From contig CANMHB010000006.1 in the NCBI GenBank assembly GCA_947497485.1, positions 62,001 to 126,000 on the forward strand: a DNA stretch of 64,000 nucleotides, given 5' to 3'. A program made the position numbers and the translations under genes. This document shows, piece after piece, positions 37,713 to 44,912 of this stretch. Each line of letters begins with the position of its first letter. Positions within the stretch are counted from its first letter, which is position 1. The stretch is from Flavobacteriales bacterium (GTDB lineage Bacteria > Bacteroidota > Bacteroidia > Flavobacteriales_D > Crocinitomicaceae). Below the pieces are notes generated by a model. It saw only the letters and a list, made by a program, of their open reading frames with translations, ran no database searches and was not told the DNA's origin.

Positions 37713-40700
37713 ATGAATAAATTATACTCGATTCTACTTTTAATTTTGATGTGCTTCTTCTTGAGCGACAAGGTATTTTCTCAAGCAAATATAAAAGTCA
37801 GAATAATTTCTGTAGAAACCACACAAAATGTAAATTGCGATGGTGGAGGTCAATTTAGTGGATGTTCAAGTGATTACGTATGGGAATACCAGGCAACAGA
37901 CAATACAGTAGGTTATTCTAACAATATTAGTTCAGCCTTACCTTTGACGAATGGATTACTCGGATCCATTTTTAATCATACATGGGTGGATAATAACAAC
38001 GGCGCCTACACTTTTAATGTTGGAGGTGGAAACATATATAATACTTGTTTATTTATTGGTTCCCAAGGTTACGATCCTGCAAATGGATATTTCTTTGACC
38101 ACGATTATATTTGCCCTAGCGACATTCCAACTCAAATAACTATTAGATGGGCAGCATACGACAATGATGGTGCTTTAACATATTCAACCAATGCAAATCC
38201 AGGTTCAAACACTGGAATTCAAACACAATCCATTACAGTGCCTTTGAGTAATGGAGTATCACCTATTACCTATGAGGCAACAGGAGAAAGTTGTGGAGGG
38301 GGCAGTCAAACCTTTAAAATAACTTTTGAATTGATTAGGACTGATTTTGCTCCAACAGTTTTAATTCTTCCTAATGATATTTGTGATGCTGTTCAATTAA
38401 ATACCAATACCTCATACAATATAGCGCTCTGTCAATCTAATGCATTACAAACAAATGAACCTAGAGCAGGTGATGTTGAGGCGAATCAATCTTCAGCATG
38501 GTTCAGGTTTGTCGCTCCACTTTCTGGCGCTGTTGAAATTACCACTGATCTGCCCGGTACAGAAATTGGAACCTATTTTCAAATTTACCATGCTGCCGAT
38601 GGCAGTGCCTGTAATACTGGAATTCAACCTCTTACAAATGATACACTAAAAGATAAATTTGAATATCTTTCACACATAGAGTATTCAGATGGATTGGATG
38701 ATATTCCACTTTTTTCTGATCCAGAGGCTGAAATCACCTTAAACGCTTGTGATCCAATTCCTTTCTTTAGTTATCAAAAACTGATTGCAGGTCAAACTTA
38801 TTACGTGCAGATAACAGGTGACAATGACGCTGCGGGAATTGTAGAAGTTCGTATCAATGATTTGGGTGGAGGACCTTCTGGAGATTCAGAGGATATACCT
38901 TGTCTTTCAACAACCGTTAATTATGGTCAAACAGCAATTTCATCTGATGCAAACAGCACAGAATCAGCACTTTTAGATTTTGGATGTGCTTATGATGGAA
39001 CTAATGACTATGCAGAAACAGGCGCACCTCATACAGATAATAACCCGATTCACTACCATGCGTATGACTATGATCATGTTGCAGCCAATAACCCTGTAGT
39101 AAATGAATCAATTTGGTTAAACTTTGTTGCTCCAAATAGTGGACGAATGATTTTCGAAGCTGATTATCAAAGTGCTCTTTATGGTGAAAACAATGCTTTA
39201 TTTGGTTACGACAAGCGATTTGCTCCTGGAATTCCAACTGATTTTTCTTGTGCTAACCTTGAGTATATTGCTGAAGACGAAGGAGGAACTAATAGCTTTT
39301 TAGGTGGAGACCCAAGCGCATTAATAGACCGTCGCTGCTTAGAACCTGGTTACAAATATTATGGAATGGTTGATCCTTCTGACAACCTTACTCCTTTAAG
39401 TACTCAAAATATTAAATCTTGGTTATTTGATCCAAGTATTGTTGATCCTACATTAAATTCTCCCGGAAATGATATTTTGTGTTTAGCTATGCAAGATACC
39501 CTATATGAAGTTCCTGTTATACTCGCAGGAACAAATCCTACGTTTCAAGCAGTCGCTGGTTCAAATGTTTTTGCTTGTCAAGAATATTTGGCAGGTGAAC
39601 CAAATGTTGACGCGAACCAAAACAATTGTGCAAATCAAACCGTATGGCACTATTTCACTGCTCCTCCATCAGGCGCCGTCGAAATGAGTATTCGGGCATA
39701 CATCGGTATGAATACCTTGCGTTATAATGTTTTCGAACTTTTAAATGGGGCAGATTGCTATGGAGGACTAAATCCAGCAACATTCACAAATGATGGAACG
39801 AGAAATACGCCAATAATAACACCTATTATTTCCGGAACAGCAGGATATGATGGAGCTCAAAATTCAGCTTGTTGTTTAGAGCCAGGGAGAATTTATGCTA
39901 TTCAAATCGATGGTGGATCTCCTGGAGATGAAGGACAATATATTATCGAATACATCAAAGAAATCGATAGTGATGCCGGAGATATTTATGTTGAATTAGC
40001 CAATGGCGATAGTCTTACGGTAGCTCAGCAAGATACCGCATTCATTTGCTTTGGCGATATTTTCAATCCTGGAATTACAGTTAACGGAATCGGTCAATCT
40101 ACGCAAAGCTTACCTAACTGTTTAACGCCAGGTTATGTTATTCATCAAGTTCAAACAATTCCTGATCCAATTGCAAATACAGGATTTAATAATGCATTCA
40201 TAGATACTTTGATCGGGCAAAATGGATTCTTTACAAACAATGGAGACGGAAGTGGTTCATTTGGCAACCCATTCTTTAACCAATTGTATTATATCTCTCC
40301 GGCTGGCGATATAACTGCGGATTGGGGTGATTTCACCTGCGGAACTTCTACTGTTTCTCAGGGACTACCAATTGTTTTCTTACAACAATTAAATGCAATT
40401 TTTACCTATGACAACTCCACTTGTACGGCTTCCTTTTCAGCCACTGGAGGATTAAATGGTTACTACTCAAATCCATACAATTACACCATTACGAGCCCAT
40501 CAGGTGCAATAGTTGCAAGCGGTTCATTATCCCCAAATGTTTCGACTTCCTACGTTGGTTCGGAAGCTGGAATTTACCAAGTTGTAATTAGCGATGGAGC
40601 TTGTCCACAATCCTTTACTTTTGATGCTACCAATTGTAACAATCCTTGCTTGCCAACCACTTCTAATGTTAATTTGGCAATTTGCGAAGGTGAATCAGTT

Positions 40701-41534
40701 TTACTCGGTGGAACTCAACAATCAGAATCTGGAATTTATACGGATGTTTTCATTACTTCTCAGGGTTGCGATAGCACAGTTATTACAAATTTAACTGTCA
40801 ATCCAGTTGAACAAACTTCTAAGCAATTTACTCTTTGTCCGGGAGGCTCAATACAAATTGGATCAAGTATTTACAATGCTCAAGGTTTATACATTGATAC
40901 GCTTCAAACACTAGCAGGCTGTGATTCAATTGTGACCTCGGTTATCTTTATGCTTCCTTCAATTACTACAAATATTGAAACAACAATTTGTAGTGGATCT
41001 ACTTACAACTTCAATGGAATTGATTTAACAGAAGCTGGAGTTTATAATGCAACATTGGCTACTACTGAAGGATGTGACTCAATTGTTGTTTTATCGCTTT
41101 TCGTAACTCCACCAAATGCAAGTTACGAAGTTGCTGAAATTTGCATTGGTGAATCATATACCTTCGGAAATAACACCTACACTGAGAGTGGAATTTATCA
41201 AGATACAGTTTCAACTTTAGCTGGCTGCGATTCATTAACAATATTGGAATTGTCGGTTTTGGATTGCGAATTTCAAATCAGTAATATTCTAACTCCAAAT
41301 GATGACGGACAAAACGATACTTGGCGTGTTAGTGACCTAACAAAAATTTCAGACTGCAATGTTTCCATCTTTAATCGTTGGGGTGAACCTGTTTTTGAAA
41401 CAGTCAACTATCAAAATGATTGGGGAGGCACTAAAGATGGTACACCATTACCTGATGGCGTATACTTCTATGCAATTAAATGTTCTGATAAAGAATATAC
41501 CGGTTCGATTAATTTATTGAGATTTAAAAAATAA
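37713..41534 (+). CDS. Large T9SS-exported protein with gliding-motility-type C-terminal domain
   Basis: 1273 residues. A signal peptide ends V-F-S-Q (about 24). The N-terminal region is followed by three pre-peptidase-C-like beta domains, recognisable from S-A-W-F-R-F-V-A-P, S-I-W-L-N-F-V-A-P and T-V-W-H-Y-F-T-A-P starts. Four tandem Cys-containing repeats of about 50 residues lie at about 986-1186. The last 85 residues are the gliding-motility-associated/CHU_C (type B) domain: I-L-T-P-N-D-D-G-Q-N-D-T-W, N-R-W-G-E-P-V-F, L-P-D-G-V-Y-F-Y-A-I. This tail directs export by T9SS. Probably a cell-surface adhesin-like protein; its ligand is unknown. It is followed after 8 nt by its likely PorP/SprF partner. 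Confidence 0.92.
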   Translation: MNKLYSILLLILMCFFLSDKVFSQANIKVRIISVETTQNVNCDGGGQFSGCSSDYVWEYQATDNTVGYSNNISSALPLTNGLLGSIFNHTWVDNNNGAYTFNVGGGNIYNTCLFIGSQGYDPANGYFFDHDYICPSDIPTQITIRWAAYDNDGALTYSTNANPGSNTGIQTQSITVPLSNGVSPITYEATGESCGGGSQTFKITFELIRTDFAPTVLILPNDICDAVQLNTNTSYNIALCQSNALQTNEPRAGDVEANQSSAWFRFVAPLSGAVEITTDLPGTEIGTYFQIYHAADGSACNTGIQPLTNDTLKDKFEYLSHIEYSDGLDDIPLFSDPEAEITLNACDPIPFFSYQKLIAGQTYYVQITGDNDAAGIVEVRINDLGGGPSGDSEDIPCLSTTVNYGQTAISSDANSTESALLDFGCAYDGTNDYAETGAPHTDNNPIHYHAYDYDHVAANNPVVNESIWLNFVAPNSGRMIFEADYQSALYGENNALFGYDKRFAPGIPTDFSCANLEYIAEDEGGTNSFLGGDPSALIDRRCLEPGYKYYGMVDPSDNLTPLSTQNIKSWLFDPSIVDPTLNSPGNDILCLAMQDTLYEVPVILAGTNPTFQAVAGSNVFACQEYLAGEPNVDANQNNCANQTVWHYFTAPPSGAVEMSIRAYIGMNTLRYNVFELLNGADCYGGLNPATFTNDGTRNTPIITPIISGTAGYDGAQNSACCLEPGRIYAIQIDGGSPGDEGQYIIEYIKEIDSDAGDIYVELANGDSLTVAQQDTAFICFGDIFNPGITVNGIGQSTQSLPNCLTPGYVIHQVQTIPDPIANTGFNNAFIDTLIGQNGFFTNNGDGSGSFGNPFFNQLYYISPAGDITADWGDFTCGTSTVSQGLPIVFLQQLNAIFTYDNSTCTASFSATGGLNGYYSNPYNYTITSPSGAIVASGSLSPNVSTSYVGSEAGIYQVVISDGACPQSFTFDATNCNNPCLPTTSNVNLAICEGESVLLGGTQQSESGIYTDVFITSQGCDSTVITNLTVNPVEQTSKQFTLCPGGSIQIGSSIYNAQGLYIDTLQTLAGCDSIVTSVIFMLPSITTNIETTICSGSTYNFNGIDLTEAGVYNATLATTEGCDSIVVLSLFVTPPNASYEVAEICIGESYTFGNNTYTESGIYQDTVSTLAGCDSLTILELSVLDCEFQISNILTPNDDGQNDTWRVSDLTKISDCNVSIFNRWGEPVFETVNYQNDWGGTKDGTPLPDGVYFYAIKCSDKEYTGSINLLRFKK
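40668..41270 (+). repeat. Four tandem about-50-residue coding repeats
   Basis: Each unit has an I/L-C-x-G core, a G-x-Y turn and ends in G-C-D-S-x-x-x-x-L-x-V. The units are seen at residues about 986, 1036, 1086 and 1136 of the large secreted protein. DNA identity between units is low, so this is an old protein repeat rather than a recent duplication. Confidence 0.8.
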
Positions 41535-41542
41535 GTAAAGTC

Positions 41543-42913
41543 ATGAAAACAAGAATTTTAACTTTCGCTATTTCCATTGTTTCGTTGACTTCATTGGCTC
41601 AACAAACCCCACAAAGTAACGTTTACGGATATAATAAATATTCGATTAACCCTGCTTACGTCGGATCAAGTAATTGTACAGAGATTAATTTTTCACACCT
41701 AAATCAATGGGTAAAAGTAGAAGGCGCACCCTTGACAAGCATGTTTAGTGTGAGCAGTCGAATCGGAAAGTCTCTTGGATTAGGAGGTCAAATCTTAATA
41801 GATAAAATTGGGATGCTTCAACAAATAAGCGGTCTTGGAACGATTTCATATGGATTAAACTTTGCTCAAGAGCACAACATCCGACTCGGAATTTCTGTTG
41901 GGTATAATCAATATCGTATTAATCCATCAACTGCAATAGCTTTTGATAACCAAGATCCAATTATTAACGGTGGTTTGCAATCAGCGGGTGCATTGAATAC
42001 AGAACTTGGCTTGGCATATAGTTGGAAAAATCTTGAATTAGCTATTGCTTCAAAACAACTACTTCAAACTTATTCAAATTTTGGATATAATAATCTTGAA
42101 GGATATGGATTAAGAAGACATATTAGTGGATTGATTGGTTACAGAATTAATATAAATGAAAAATGGTCTGTTAAACCATCTGTTTGGGCTAAAGGAACAA
42201 ACAATGGTTATCAATTTGATTTTAATGGTGATTTAAATTATAATGACCTGTTTTTCGGAGGTATTGGATACAGAACAAAAGTTGGATTAGTCGCAAGGGC
42301 AGGAATTAACATTCAAAAATTGTTTTTCATTGGATATGCTTATGAGACACCAATGAGTAATATTGCTTCATATAGTGCTGGTTCTCACGAGGTAATTCTG
42401 GGATTAAAACTTTGTAAAAAATCAAAACAGTTACCTAAAGATGAGGTTAAAAAGGAACTAAAAGACACAACTCAGAACATTGCCAAACAAGAAATTAAAA
42501 TAGATACTGTGGTCATTACTAAAATGGATACTATATATATTGAAAAACCAGCGGCTACAAGAAAAATTGATAATTCGGCGCTAATCAACAAGAATATTAT
42601 GTTCGAATTTGATAAATCTATAGTACAGAAAGAAGCCTTTGGTGAATTAGAATCTTTAGTCAACATTATGATGGACAGGCCTTCCATTAAAATTGAATTA
42701 CAAGGTCATACGGACGCTGTTGGACCTGAGGTTTATAATACTTATTTATCTCAAAATCGTGTTAACGCGGTTCGTGACTTCCTTATTGCAAATGGAATTG
42801 AAGCATCAAGAATCAAATGCTTGTACCATGGAGAGAGTAAGCCTAAAGCGAACAATAACAATGCGCAGGGAAGACAACAGAACAGAAGAGTTGAAGTTAG
42901 ATTTATTCAATAA
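41543..42913 (+). CDS. PorP/SprF-type T9SS protein fused to an OmpA domain
   Basis: 456 residues. A signal peptide (about 1-19) leads into a PorP/SprF beta-barrel domain to about 295: Y-S-I-N-P-A-Y-V-G-S-S near the start, and G-Y-N-Q-Y-R-I-N-P and I-G-Y-A-Y-E-T-P-M-S later. After a Lys/Thr linker, the last 105 residues are an OmpA peptidoglycan-binding domain: I-M-F-E-F-D-K-S, L-Q-G-H-T-D-A-V-G and N-R-R-V-E-V. SprF/PorP proteins accompany CHU_C-type substrates through T9SS. The OmpA part would anchor the barrel to the wall. The upstream neighbour is such a substrate. Confidence 0.92.
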   Translation: MKTRILTFAISIVSLTSLAQQTPQSNVYGYNKYSINPAYVGSSNCTEINFSHLNQWVKVEGAPLTSMFSVSSRIGKSLGLGGQILIDKIGMLQQISGLGTISYGLNFAQEHNIRLGISVGYNQYRINPSTAIAFDNQDPIINGGLQSAGALNTELGLAYSWKNLELAIASKQLLQTYSNFGYNNLEGYGLRRHISGLIGYRININEKWSVKPSVWAKGTNNGYQFDFNGDLNYNDLFFGGIGYRTKVGLVARAGINIQKLFFIGYAYETPMSNIASYSAGSHEVILGLKLCKKSKQLPKDEVKKELKDTTQNIAKQEIKIDTVVITKMDTIYIEKPAATRKIDNSALINKNIMFEFDKSIVQKEAFGELESLVNIMMDRPSIKIELQGHTDAVGPEVYNTYLSQNRVNAVRDFLIANGIEASRIKCLYHGESKPKANNNNAQGRQQNRRVEVRFIQ

Positions 42914-42936: not shown

Positions 42937-42965
42937 TGGCTGCTCAGTTGGGTAGCCATTTTTTT
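42937..42965 (+). terminator. Rho-independent terminator after the PorP/SprF-OmpA gene
   Basis: TGGCTGC pairs with GTAGCCA (one G-T pair), 8-nt loop, followed by seven T. Its T-tract overlaps the 3' end of the convergent repeat-protein gene. Confidence 0.75.
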
Positions 42966-43446
42966 ATAAATCTTTATTTATAGAGTGCATATCATTGTGA
43001 TTTTCCTCTATTTGGTCTTTTATGAACTGTATACTTTTTGCTAGAACAAATAAATCGGCAGAAACATTTTGCTTCAACCAAATCCAACTTTCTCGCTCAT
43101 GATCAATAGCCTTCGCCATGTGATATAACATCTCAAAATTATTTTCAAGAAGCCATTTAGCTGCTTTTTGATTACCTTCTGCCGCGTGTATCATAGCCAT
43201 CAAATGAGCATATCCATTTTTCAATAGCCATTGTCTAGGTTCATCTTTTAAATAAATTGCAAAAACACTAAAATAAAGTTCAGGGTAGCCATTATCTTTT
43301 AACCAATTTTGTAATTCAACATTACCTTCTACTGCCTTAGCCCACGCAAGGATTACCATTGATGGGTATTCGATGGATTGCAAAGGAACATACTCTAGCG
43401 GCTTTTCCTCTTCTTTTTTTTGTTTTTTAAAAAAACTCCAAACCAT
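42964..43446 (-). CDS. Small protein with exact 25-residue W-L-x-x-N repeats
   Basis: 160 residues. After a basic/acidic start (K-K-Q-K-K-E-E-E-K), Trp-Leu pairs occur at 48, 73, 98 and 123, each followed by Asn at +4 (W-L-K-D-N, W-L-L-K-N, W-L-L-E-N, W-L-K-Q-N), with hydrophobic helices and small residues between. This points to a helical solenoid of four 25-residue units. No family is recognised and no signal peptide is present; the first residues V-W-S-F-F could touch the membrane. It starts 26 nt after the SpmA/SpmB-type gene on the same strand, so the two are probably in one operon. Confidence 0.8.
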   Translation of the reverse strand: MVWSFFKKQKKEEEKPLEYVPLQSIEYPSMVILAWAKAVEGNVELQNWLKDNGYPELYFSVFAIYLKDEPRQWLLKNGYAHLMAMIHAAEGNQKAAKWLLENNFEMLYHMAKAIDHERESWIWLKQNVSADLFVLAKSIQFIKDQIEENHNDMHSINKDL

Positions 43447-43472: not shown

Positions 43473-44912
43473 CTAAAAAAACCATAATGCAACGAAAATG
43501 GCTGTAATAACGCAAATTAAATCCACTAGTAACATTGTTCCAAGTGTATACCGAGTATTTTTAACGCTTATTGAACCAAAGTATACCGCAATTACATAAA
43601 AAGTGGTTTCGGCACTGCATTGAAAAATACAACTTAATCTTCCCGTTAAAGAATCTGGGCCAAAATTATTCATCGCATCAATCATAAATCCACGAGATCC
43701 ACCCGAACTAAATGGACGAAGAATAGCTACAGGAAGTGAATCAGTTATTTCCTTTGATACTCCAAGAAATCGAAACCCTTCCGAAATCCAACCACTAATA
43801 ATTTCAAATAATCCGCTATTCCGAAATAACGAAATAGCAACAAGCATTCCGAGAACATATGGAAAAATAGTAACACCCGTATTCAGTCCACTTTTAGCTC
43901 CTACAACAAACGAATCAAAAACCGTAGTTTCTTTCTCTCTAAATTTTCGTTCTTGAATGAATGAAAAAATTAAGGTGAATCCAATTATTCCAATTAACAA
44001 CAATCCTGAAAAATTACCAGTGAAATAATTCTTACCCAATACATCTAAACTATTAACATAGAAAAGTAAACCGACAATAGCGGCAATTACTGAAATTAAG
44101 GCTACAAGAATTGCGGCGCTTTTGAAATTAATTCGCTGACGGAGTCCAACGATTACGAAAGCAGCAATTGTCCCAATGAATGAAGTGATTATACAAGGCA
44201 ACATCACGTCTGCAGGATTCATCGCGTTTTGGGCAGCTCGATAGCCAATTATAGAGGTCGGAATCAATGTCAAACCAGCGGCATGTAAACACATAAACAT
44301 AATTTGAGCATCACTCGCCTTATCTTTTTCTGGATTAATTTCTTGCAGACTTTGCATCGCTTTCAGTCCAAAAGGGGTAGCAGCAGAATCCAAACCAAGG
44401 AAATTAGCAGAAAAATTCAACGTCATATAGGAAATTGACTCGTGGTTTTTGGGAACACTTGGAAAAACCTTTACAAAAAATGGACTTAGCCTACGTGCCA
44501 GTTTTTCAGTTGCACCTGAATCAATAAGCAATTGCATAATACCACAAAAGAATGCAAGATATGCCATTAGGGGTAAAATCAAATCCGTTAAACTAACCTT
44601 ACATGTTTCGAGCAAACCATCTGACTTTTGAACTCCCGAATAGACTTGAACCGTTTTATTTTTGAATACATAGGTTGTATCGGGATCTCTGTCATTTAAA
44701 TTCACAATAACTTTACCCTCAGAAGACTTTCTCAAAGAATCTCTTAAGGTTGAAGGCAGTTGCCGCATGTATTTCTCGCCAATAAGGATTGGATTTTCTT
44801 TTTTTCCATTTAAAACAAAATCGATCGAATAATTTCGAGATGTAAATACTCCTGTAACTACGAAGAGAATTGAGGAGATGAAAATTATGAGCCAAAATCT
44901 ACTTAATACCAT
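43473..44912 (-). CDS. SpmA-SpmB-type fusion (nucleoside-recognition/Gate domain membrane protein)
   Basis: 479 residues with about ten transmembrane helices. After the first helix comes a soluble loop of about 70 residues. Two Gate-type halves follow: L-M-A-Y-L-A-F-F-C-G-I-M-Q-L-L-I-D-S-G, N-F-S-A-N-F-L-G-L-D-S-A-A-T-P-F-G, and in the second half L-R-P-F-S-S-G-G-S-R-G and C-S-A-E-T-T-F-Y-V. In Bacillus the two halves are SpmA and SpmB, needed for spore-core dehydration; in non-sporing Bacteroidota the fused form is common and its function is unknown. Confidence 0.88.
   Translation of the reverse strand: MVLSRFWLIIFISSILFVVTGVFTSRNYSIDFVLNGKKENPILIGEKYMRQLPSTLRDSLRKSSEGKVIVNLNDRDPDTTYVFKNKTVQVYSGVQKSDGLLETCKVSLTDLILPLMAYLAFFCGIMQLLIDSGATEKLARRLSPFFVKVFPSVPKNHESISYMTLNFSANFLGLDSAATPFGLKAMQSLQEINPEKDKASDAQIMFMCLHAAGLTLIPTSIIGYRAAQNAMNPADVMLPCIITSFIGTIAAFVIVGLRQRINFKSAAILVALISVIAAIVGLLFYVNSLDVLGKNYFTGNFSGLLLIGIIGFTLIFSFIQERKFREKETTVFDSFVVGAKSGLNTGVTIFPYVLGMLVAISLFRNSGLFEIISGWISEGFRFLGVSKEITDSLPVAILRPFSSGGSRGFMIDAMNNFGPDSLTGRLSCIFQCSAETTFYVIAVYFGSISVKNTRYTLGTMLLVDLICVITAIFVALWFF

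Follow-up and report, generated by a model that had tools for sequence, protein, structure and literature searches.

An uncatalogued family of 25-residue Trp-Leu repeat proteins and its lineage-specific gene linkage to an SpmA-SpmB-type fusion

Introduction

The spore maturation proteins SpmA and SpmB have a role in spore core dehydration, and the phylum from which the DNA studied here was taken is not known to form spores. A 2012 survey (PMC3533761) states that neither activity nor structural data appear to exist for spmA and spmB. No substrate of SpmA/SpmB was found assigned in the literature, as searched by title and abstract start and among the matches listed. We analysed a window (the whole stretch of DNA under study, 64,000 nucleotides) in which a gene of this type stands next to one for a small protein with regularly spaced Trp-Leu pairs, here called the WL protein. 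The SpmA-SpmB-type neighbour (SpmAB below) resembles SpmA and SpmB in having two Gate domains and differs in being a fused protein of 479 residues with an insert of about 75 residues.

The WL protein is predicted to consist of stacked antiparallel helix pairs, as TPR, Sel1-like, PPR, HEAT and ARM repeats do. Sel1-like and TPR units have 34 or more residues. Ankyrin repeats, whose consensus includes the stretch EVVKLLLEAG, and LRV repeats (about 24 residues, with alternating alpha and 3-10 helices and a Cys cluster) are other described repeats. An excerpt of a 2024 review (PMC11514114) gives unit lengths of 31–36 residues for PPR and about 40 for HEAT.

The 25-residue repeat and its predicted fold

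The gene and the parts of its product are given below. The gene was delimited from the ORF list and relatives, the N-terminal segment from the sequence and from pLDDT below 50, and the other parts from the AlphaFold model and the alignment.

42964..43446, minus strand: WL (25-residue-repeat) protein, 160 residues, ATG start, stop included
43399..43446, minus strand: N-terminal segment, residues 1–16, predicted disordered, running from aromatic through basic to acidic
43291..43365, minus strand: repeat unit 1, residues 28–52, helices 29–39 and 43–51, Trp-Leu at 48–49
43216..43290, minus strand: repeat unit 2, residues 53–77, helices 55–64 and 68–76, Trp-Leu at 73–74
43141..43215, minus strand: repeat unit 3, residues 78–102, helices 80–89 and 93–101, Trp-Leu at 98–99
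43066..43140, minus strand: repeat unit 4, residues 103–127, helices 105–114 and 118–127, Trp-Leu at 123–124
42970..43059, minus strand: long C-terminal helix, residues 130–159, with the motif KDxIExxHNDxH at residues 143–154

The initial annotation had described a ladder of Trp-Leu pairs in this protein, and we found it as described: the pairs start at residues 48, 73, 98 and 123, exactly 25 residues apart, and each Trp is followed at +4 by Asn (residues 52, 77, 102 and 127). Out of 200,000 residue shuffles of the protein none contained a four-step WL ladder (46 contained a three-step one), and a four-step ladder of any dipeptide was seen in seven out of 20,000 shuffles. The same period is seen in the alignments: the autocorrelation of column profiles peaks at 25, and next at 50, in A1 (0.337, with a shuffle maximum of -0.138), A2 (-0.019, with -0.251) and A3 (1.016, with 0.051), exceeding in each case all 200 column shuffles made per alignment. 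Counted over A3 (40 rows), the pair at sites 1–4 has its Leu in 40, 39, 40 and 40 rows and its Trp in 36, 34, 27 and 27, and Asn stands at +4 in 28, 28, 17 and 22, so Leu is the near-invariant mark of the repeat, Trp is common and Asn less so. When the four units are pooled (A3), the strongest positions are L22 (0.99), W21 (0.78) and A18 (0.72), followed by L5 (0.71), G14 (0.64) and N25 (0.59).

AlphaFold, supplied with 21 relatives (22 rows), gave a model of the WL protein with a mean pLDDT of 88.5 and a pTM of 0.79 (pLDDT of at least 90 at 121 residues). The model has eight short helices, arranged as four two-helix units of 25 residues, and then the long C-terminal helix; the helices of the units are 9–11 residues long, with seven three-residue turns among the first eight. 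Tandem helix pairs of constant length, as in an alpha-solenoid, are thus seen in the model, together with the autocorrelation at 25 and 50, and because of this helix layout the helical solenoid that had been suggested earlier stands as a prediction. Its short unit, short helices and three-residue turns set it apart from TPR, Sel1-like, PPR, HEAT and ARM repeats; these solenoid families have longer units than its 25 residues. A fold search of the model against the PDB gave no match with an E value up to 0.001 (best 0.76), and the same was true of viral predictions (best 1.3), an absence of matches that is no proof of a new fold. In a VIA comparison with 958 chains the best match was a designed PPR protein (Z 4.6, rmsd 6.5, 103 aligned).

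Comparison with known repeats and families

No Pfam or NCBIfam model scored above its cut-off on the window's WL protein. Among 40 members of the family, matches to known families were weak and scattered (25 out of 49 and 25 out of 34 families listed); the most widespread among the matches listed were TQXA_dom (10 out of 40 members, best E 0.0021) and Peptidase_M24_C (eight out of 40, best E 0.0062). A sequence search of the window's protein against solved structures gave 0 matches up to E 10, and profile A3 gave eight, led by 9r2o_A 'N5' (E 0.012) and then MCM3 (0.25).

Ankyrin repeats bear some likeness to the WL units, which are also short helix-turn-helix elements and whose second helix, AxxWLxxNG, resembles the ankyrin consensus stretch. 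Ank_4 matched weakly in four out of the 40 members (best E 0.011) and was absent from the window's protein. We rejected this assignment: the period is 25 and not about 33, the model has neither a strand nor a beta-hairpin, and WL profiles compared with ankyrin proteins of related genomes (hhalign, local mode) reached at most 7.2% probability in nine comparisons, versus 89–96% in three ankyrin–ankyrin controls and 99.8% between two branches of the WL family. Sel1-like and TPR repeats were also rejected, given the period of 25 and the lack of a Sel1 or TPR match in the window's protein; Sel1 had no match in any of 20 genomes, the window's own among them. The Cys cluster of the LRV repeat has no counterpart in the window's WL protein, which is devoid of Cys; both helices of each WL unit are coded H, in a code of H, E and other that does not separate alpha from 3-10 helices.

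No 25-residue Trp-Leu solenoid was found in the open-licence literature, as searched by title and abstract start and among the matches listed. With no model over its cut-off, scattered weak matches in 40 relatives and no profile similarity to ankyrins, the repeat merits the word 'unnamed' that it had been given. We conclude that the WL protein belongs to a family of small alpha-solenoid proteins that has not been catalogued. It is a clean candidate both for description as a new protein family and for use as a scaffold in repeat-protein design.

Distribution of the WL family

A WL protein match was found in 39 out of 40 relatives, a set that contains the window's own genome. In the order it was found in 110 out of 120 genomes, and in 92 out of 98 when the well-assembled ones are counted; 107 of these 110 carriers have a single match and the other three have two. 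In a class-wide sample of 295 genomes, the order-level profile matches 89 and the profile of a divergent branch 95. Three out of 198 genomes match in a phylum-wide sample, and each belongs to the window's own order; the 20 misses listed for this sample come from one and the same class, and a further 175 are unlisted, so that it barely covers the reach of the family beyond the class. On plasmids there was no match for the window's WL protein or for one divergent member.

Proteins of the divergent branch are 19–29% identical to the window's WL protein and keep the 25-residue spacing. A profile of the divergent clade (A4) recovers the window's protein at E 8.7e-22, and because the profile matches are reciprocal (8.7e-22 in this search and 99.8% in the profile–profile comparison) we regard the order-level and divergent branches as one family. 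Two or more full-length copies are found in five genomes of family f49, one of which has three.

The SpmAB neighbour

The neighbour suggested by the initial annotation is indeed there, upstream on the same strand:

43473..44912, minus strand: SpmA-SpmB-type fusion, 479 residues, two Gate domains, 26 bp upstream of the WL gene

PF07670 scores over its cut-off twice within the 479-residue frame. The window's protein is of a long form, with the insert (about 75 residues, at about 30–105) placed after the first helix; a 410-residue form is free of it. In the SpmAB tree a very long branch splits the long form, which most of the genus g1 genomes sampled have, from the short form; the tree is midpoint-rooted, so this branch fits replacement and fast divergence of the long form alike and is not used here as proof of replacement. 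The predicted model of SpmAB is of medium confidence (pLDDT 70.7, pTM 0.66). Foldseek ranked transporters first, none reaching E 0.001 (a TRAP transporter came closest, at 1.4e-3), and in VIA all of the best 50 rows are transporters by title, 13 of them concentrative nucleoside transporters, with CNTnw in the lead (Z 14.0, rmsd 4.6, 281 aligned). The transporter families matched by the model move their substrates by an elevator mechanism. Since Z values of this size can arise in helical models from a common arrangement, 'transporter-like' is a lead only.

Within the window's own family (f1, probably Crocinitomicaceae; 31 genomes), SpmAB was found in all 31 genomes and the WL protein in 30, and in 27 the two genes are adjacent on the same strand with SpmAB first. 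Among the exceptions, three genomes have them on different contigs and one (G102) has SpmAB without a WL match. SpmAB adjoins the WL gene in 21 out of 23 loci of genus g1 (L001–L023) and in 27 out of 29 named records (L031–L059); the loci without SpmAB beside WL are L017 and L022 (both g1, with flanks of 1.5 kb) and L056, and the sequence of L033 ends early. The linkage includes SpmAB proteins only about 37–45% identical to the window's, and a very long branch separates these in the tree. Among 55 distinct linked loci (relatives, not independent cases), the start of WL overlaps the SpmAB stop in 13, as counted from the first in-frame ATG of the WL gene, the gap is 0–60 bp in 38 and it is 70–142 bp in four. 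Six of the 13 overlapping loci have later ATGs, and taking the next ATG abolishes the overlap in five (all but L054).

SpmAB homologues were matched in 69 out of 120 genomes of the order. Outside f1, 33 genomes match both WL and SpmAB (in one, G041, the SpmAB match is weak and covers 86 residues), and in none of the 33 are the two adjacent, with the closest same-contig pair about 31 kb apart; these match positions were compared by hand and many of the assemblies are fragmented. Another 47 genomes of the order outside f1 have a WL protein without a SpmAB match. Because of these 47 genomes and the 33 in which the genes are unlinked, the core function of the WL protein cannot require SpmAB next door, nor can SpmAB be its sole partner. 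Twenty regions from other families and from the exceptions, 16 of which have a called repeat ORF, show WL neighbours that vary by family. The operon proposed in the initial annotation therefore holds in part: the arrangement is kept within f1 (27 out of 31 genomes, with 13 start–stop overlaps in 55 loci), where the two genes are probably read as one transcript, and it is not kept across the order. A gene pair in an operon is no proof of physical contact.

N-terminal extension and C-terminal motif

The window's WL protein begins with MVWSFFKKQKK. Such an N-terminal extension, aromatic and then basic and 14–32 residues long, is present in 52 out of 64 distinct WL proteins of f1, in one out of 40 other close relatives and in none of 21 divergent WL proteins (one out of 61 elsewhere overall), by a motif rule made after the sequences had been inspected; most proteins of the divergent branch start close to the first helix. 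We infer that this segment touches the membrane. The extension and the linkage to SpmAB are not strictly coupled, since ten f1 proteins (genus g1) are without the extension though their genes follow SpmAB, and two with it (L069 of G132 and L087 of G108) are encoded apart from SpmAB.

At the other end of the protein, K143, I146, E147 and H154 are identical in 20 out of 20 rows of A1, D144 is kept in 18 and D152 in 19. Of the whole protein, the motif KDxIExxHNDxH would be the likeliest place of contact in the order-level branch; it is not kept in the divergent clade.

A second membrane-linked context in family f49

In family f49, divergent WL genes follow, on the same strand and within 2 kb, a gene for a protein with SPFH (Band_7_1, 289.5 bits) and GYF_2 domains in nine out of 10 genomes having both. 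The nine include G175, whose repeat match is a fragment of 34 residues; the tenth genome, G214, has 16.6 kb between the two genes. Because of this link we consider that a second membrane-linked context for the WL family exists. A protein with CxxC pairs is encoded between the SPFH and WL genes in L145, L149 and L151, with a weak zinc-ribbon match (L145 scanned). The regions in which divergent WL genes stand behind an SPFH/GYF_2 gene, with a zinc-ribbon-like gene in three of the four, are:

L145:2182-7868
L149:4455-7582
L151:4367-7338
L137:4303-5857

These SPFH neighbours may be akin to the SPFH system YdjI/YdjG of Bacillus subtilis, as f49 has a Band_7_1 protein near one with a weak zinc-ribbon match; the difference is that the SPFH–WL link is found in f49 only. 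In the class sample no same-contig pair of SPFH and WL closer than 100 kb was seen outside f49 among the matches listed, and the window's own genome has no SPFH match. A partnership with SPFH and zinc-ribbon proteins as a general rule was rejected, being confined to f49. For B. subtilis, an excerpt of PMC8581546 states that YdjI is needed for PspA localisation to the membrane. In L145, two WL copies in tandem are followed by a histidine kinase–response regulator hybrid.

Proposed role and alternatives

The WL protein is most likely a cytosolic adaptor, which would bind another protein or peptide. In f1 the adaptor would have acquired a link to the inner membrane: the WL gene comes after that of the SpmAB fusion, to which it would often be translationally coupled, the aromatic-basic N-terminus may hold the WL protein at the membrane, and the protein could act there as an accessory or regulatory subunit of the transporter-like SpmAB. 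Elsewhere in the class it would serve other or additional partners. This account, in which the WL family consists of cytosolic solenoid adaptors and the f1 lineage coupled its member to membrane-bound SpmAB as an accessory subunit, is the one we favour, tentatively. Its main rival, which is quite possible too, holds that the solenoid adaptor has a housekeeping task with an unrelated core protein as its partner, and that its gene's position next to SpmAB was fixed once in the ancestor of f1 and is functionally meaningless; the f1 arrangement would then add a lineage-specific job or none. Such an adaptor is consistent with a WL protein in 110 out of 120 genomes of the order whether SpmAB is present or not, with neighbours that vary by family in the 20 regions, and with the three f1 genomes that have the genes on different contigs and the two g1 loci without SpmAB in their flanks. 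Mere inheritance of gene order explains less well why start–stop overlaps and short gaps persist across several genera and beside very different SpmAB sequences, and the N-terminal addition, largely confined to f1, points beyond inertia.

Another alternative has the WL protein serve SpmAB-type proteins at large as their dedicated regulatory subunit, in line with the initial annotation, which called it a possible partner of this membrane family: the f1 gene pair fits it, but with 47 genomes lacking a SpmAB match and none of 33 adjacent outside f1 it is largely refuted as a rule, and we hold it to be very improbable. An enzyme or ligand binder, in which the stripe of K143, E147, N151, D152 and H154 would bind a metal or small molecule and the repeats would serve as scaffold, would account for the conservation within the motif in A1 (K143, I146, E147 and H154 in 20 out of 20 rows, D144 in 18 and D152 in 19) and for the position of the motif on one long predicted helix; it is improbable, as the motif is not kept in the divergent clade, no enzyme family is over its cut-off on the window's protein and a protein-binding surface explains the motif equally well. 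Returning to the adaptor coupled to SpmAB in f1, a more far-reaching form of it, which we consider rather unlikely, takes the 25-residue solenoid to be a new protein-binding repeat specific to Bacteroidia, the f1 protein to be a genuine cytosolic subunit of an SpmAB transporter, and the SpmA/SpmB family to be elevator-type solute transporters, to which this lineage added a regulatory solenoid. The f1 gene pair gives a way into the function of SpmA and SpmB, and the functions of its two products could be tested together.

Other features of the WL loci

Downstream of the WL gene, the window contains a hairpin that may mark an end of transcription:

42937..42958, no strand assigned: hairpin with a T-run (on the plus strand), between the WL gene and the OmpA-type gene, which converge (hairpin scan)

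Three hairpins were found in the region, not well above the mean of 1.5 (sd 1.4) in shuffles, and a promoter scan of the region gave seven promoter-like sites versus 8.5 in shuffles. Positions 37713-42913 of the window (plus strand) encode a 1273-residue protein with a gliding-type C-terminal stretch and then a 456-residue protein, presumably of the PorP/SprF type plus an OmpA domain. The gene for the latter is convergent with the WL gene, and the two stay side by side in several relatives.

TonB-receptor genes and genes for 80-residue proteins lie near WL members in several families. In three genomes of family f4 a protein of 170–172 residues is encoded after the WL gene, on the same strand and within about 20 bp:

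L118:8010-8528
L122:9030-9542
L126:7706-8224

A conserved small protein of 75–82 residues (MRIIGxIPHPxIxISIFxMNDKYxVKFEAGPMEQ), one copy of which was scanned and had no Pfam match, is encoded near divergent WL genes in seven out of 20 regions:

L143:4649-4891
L144:4568-4798
L146:3866-4111
L150:4726-4953
L155:3701-3949
L145:7623-7868
L152:4708-4941
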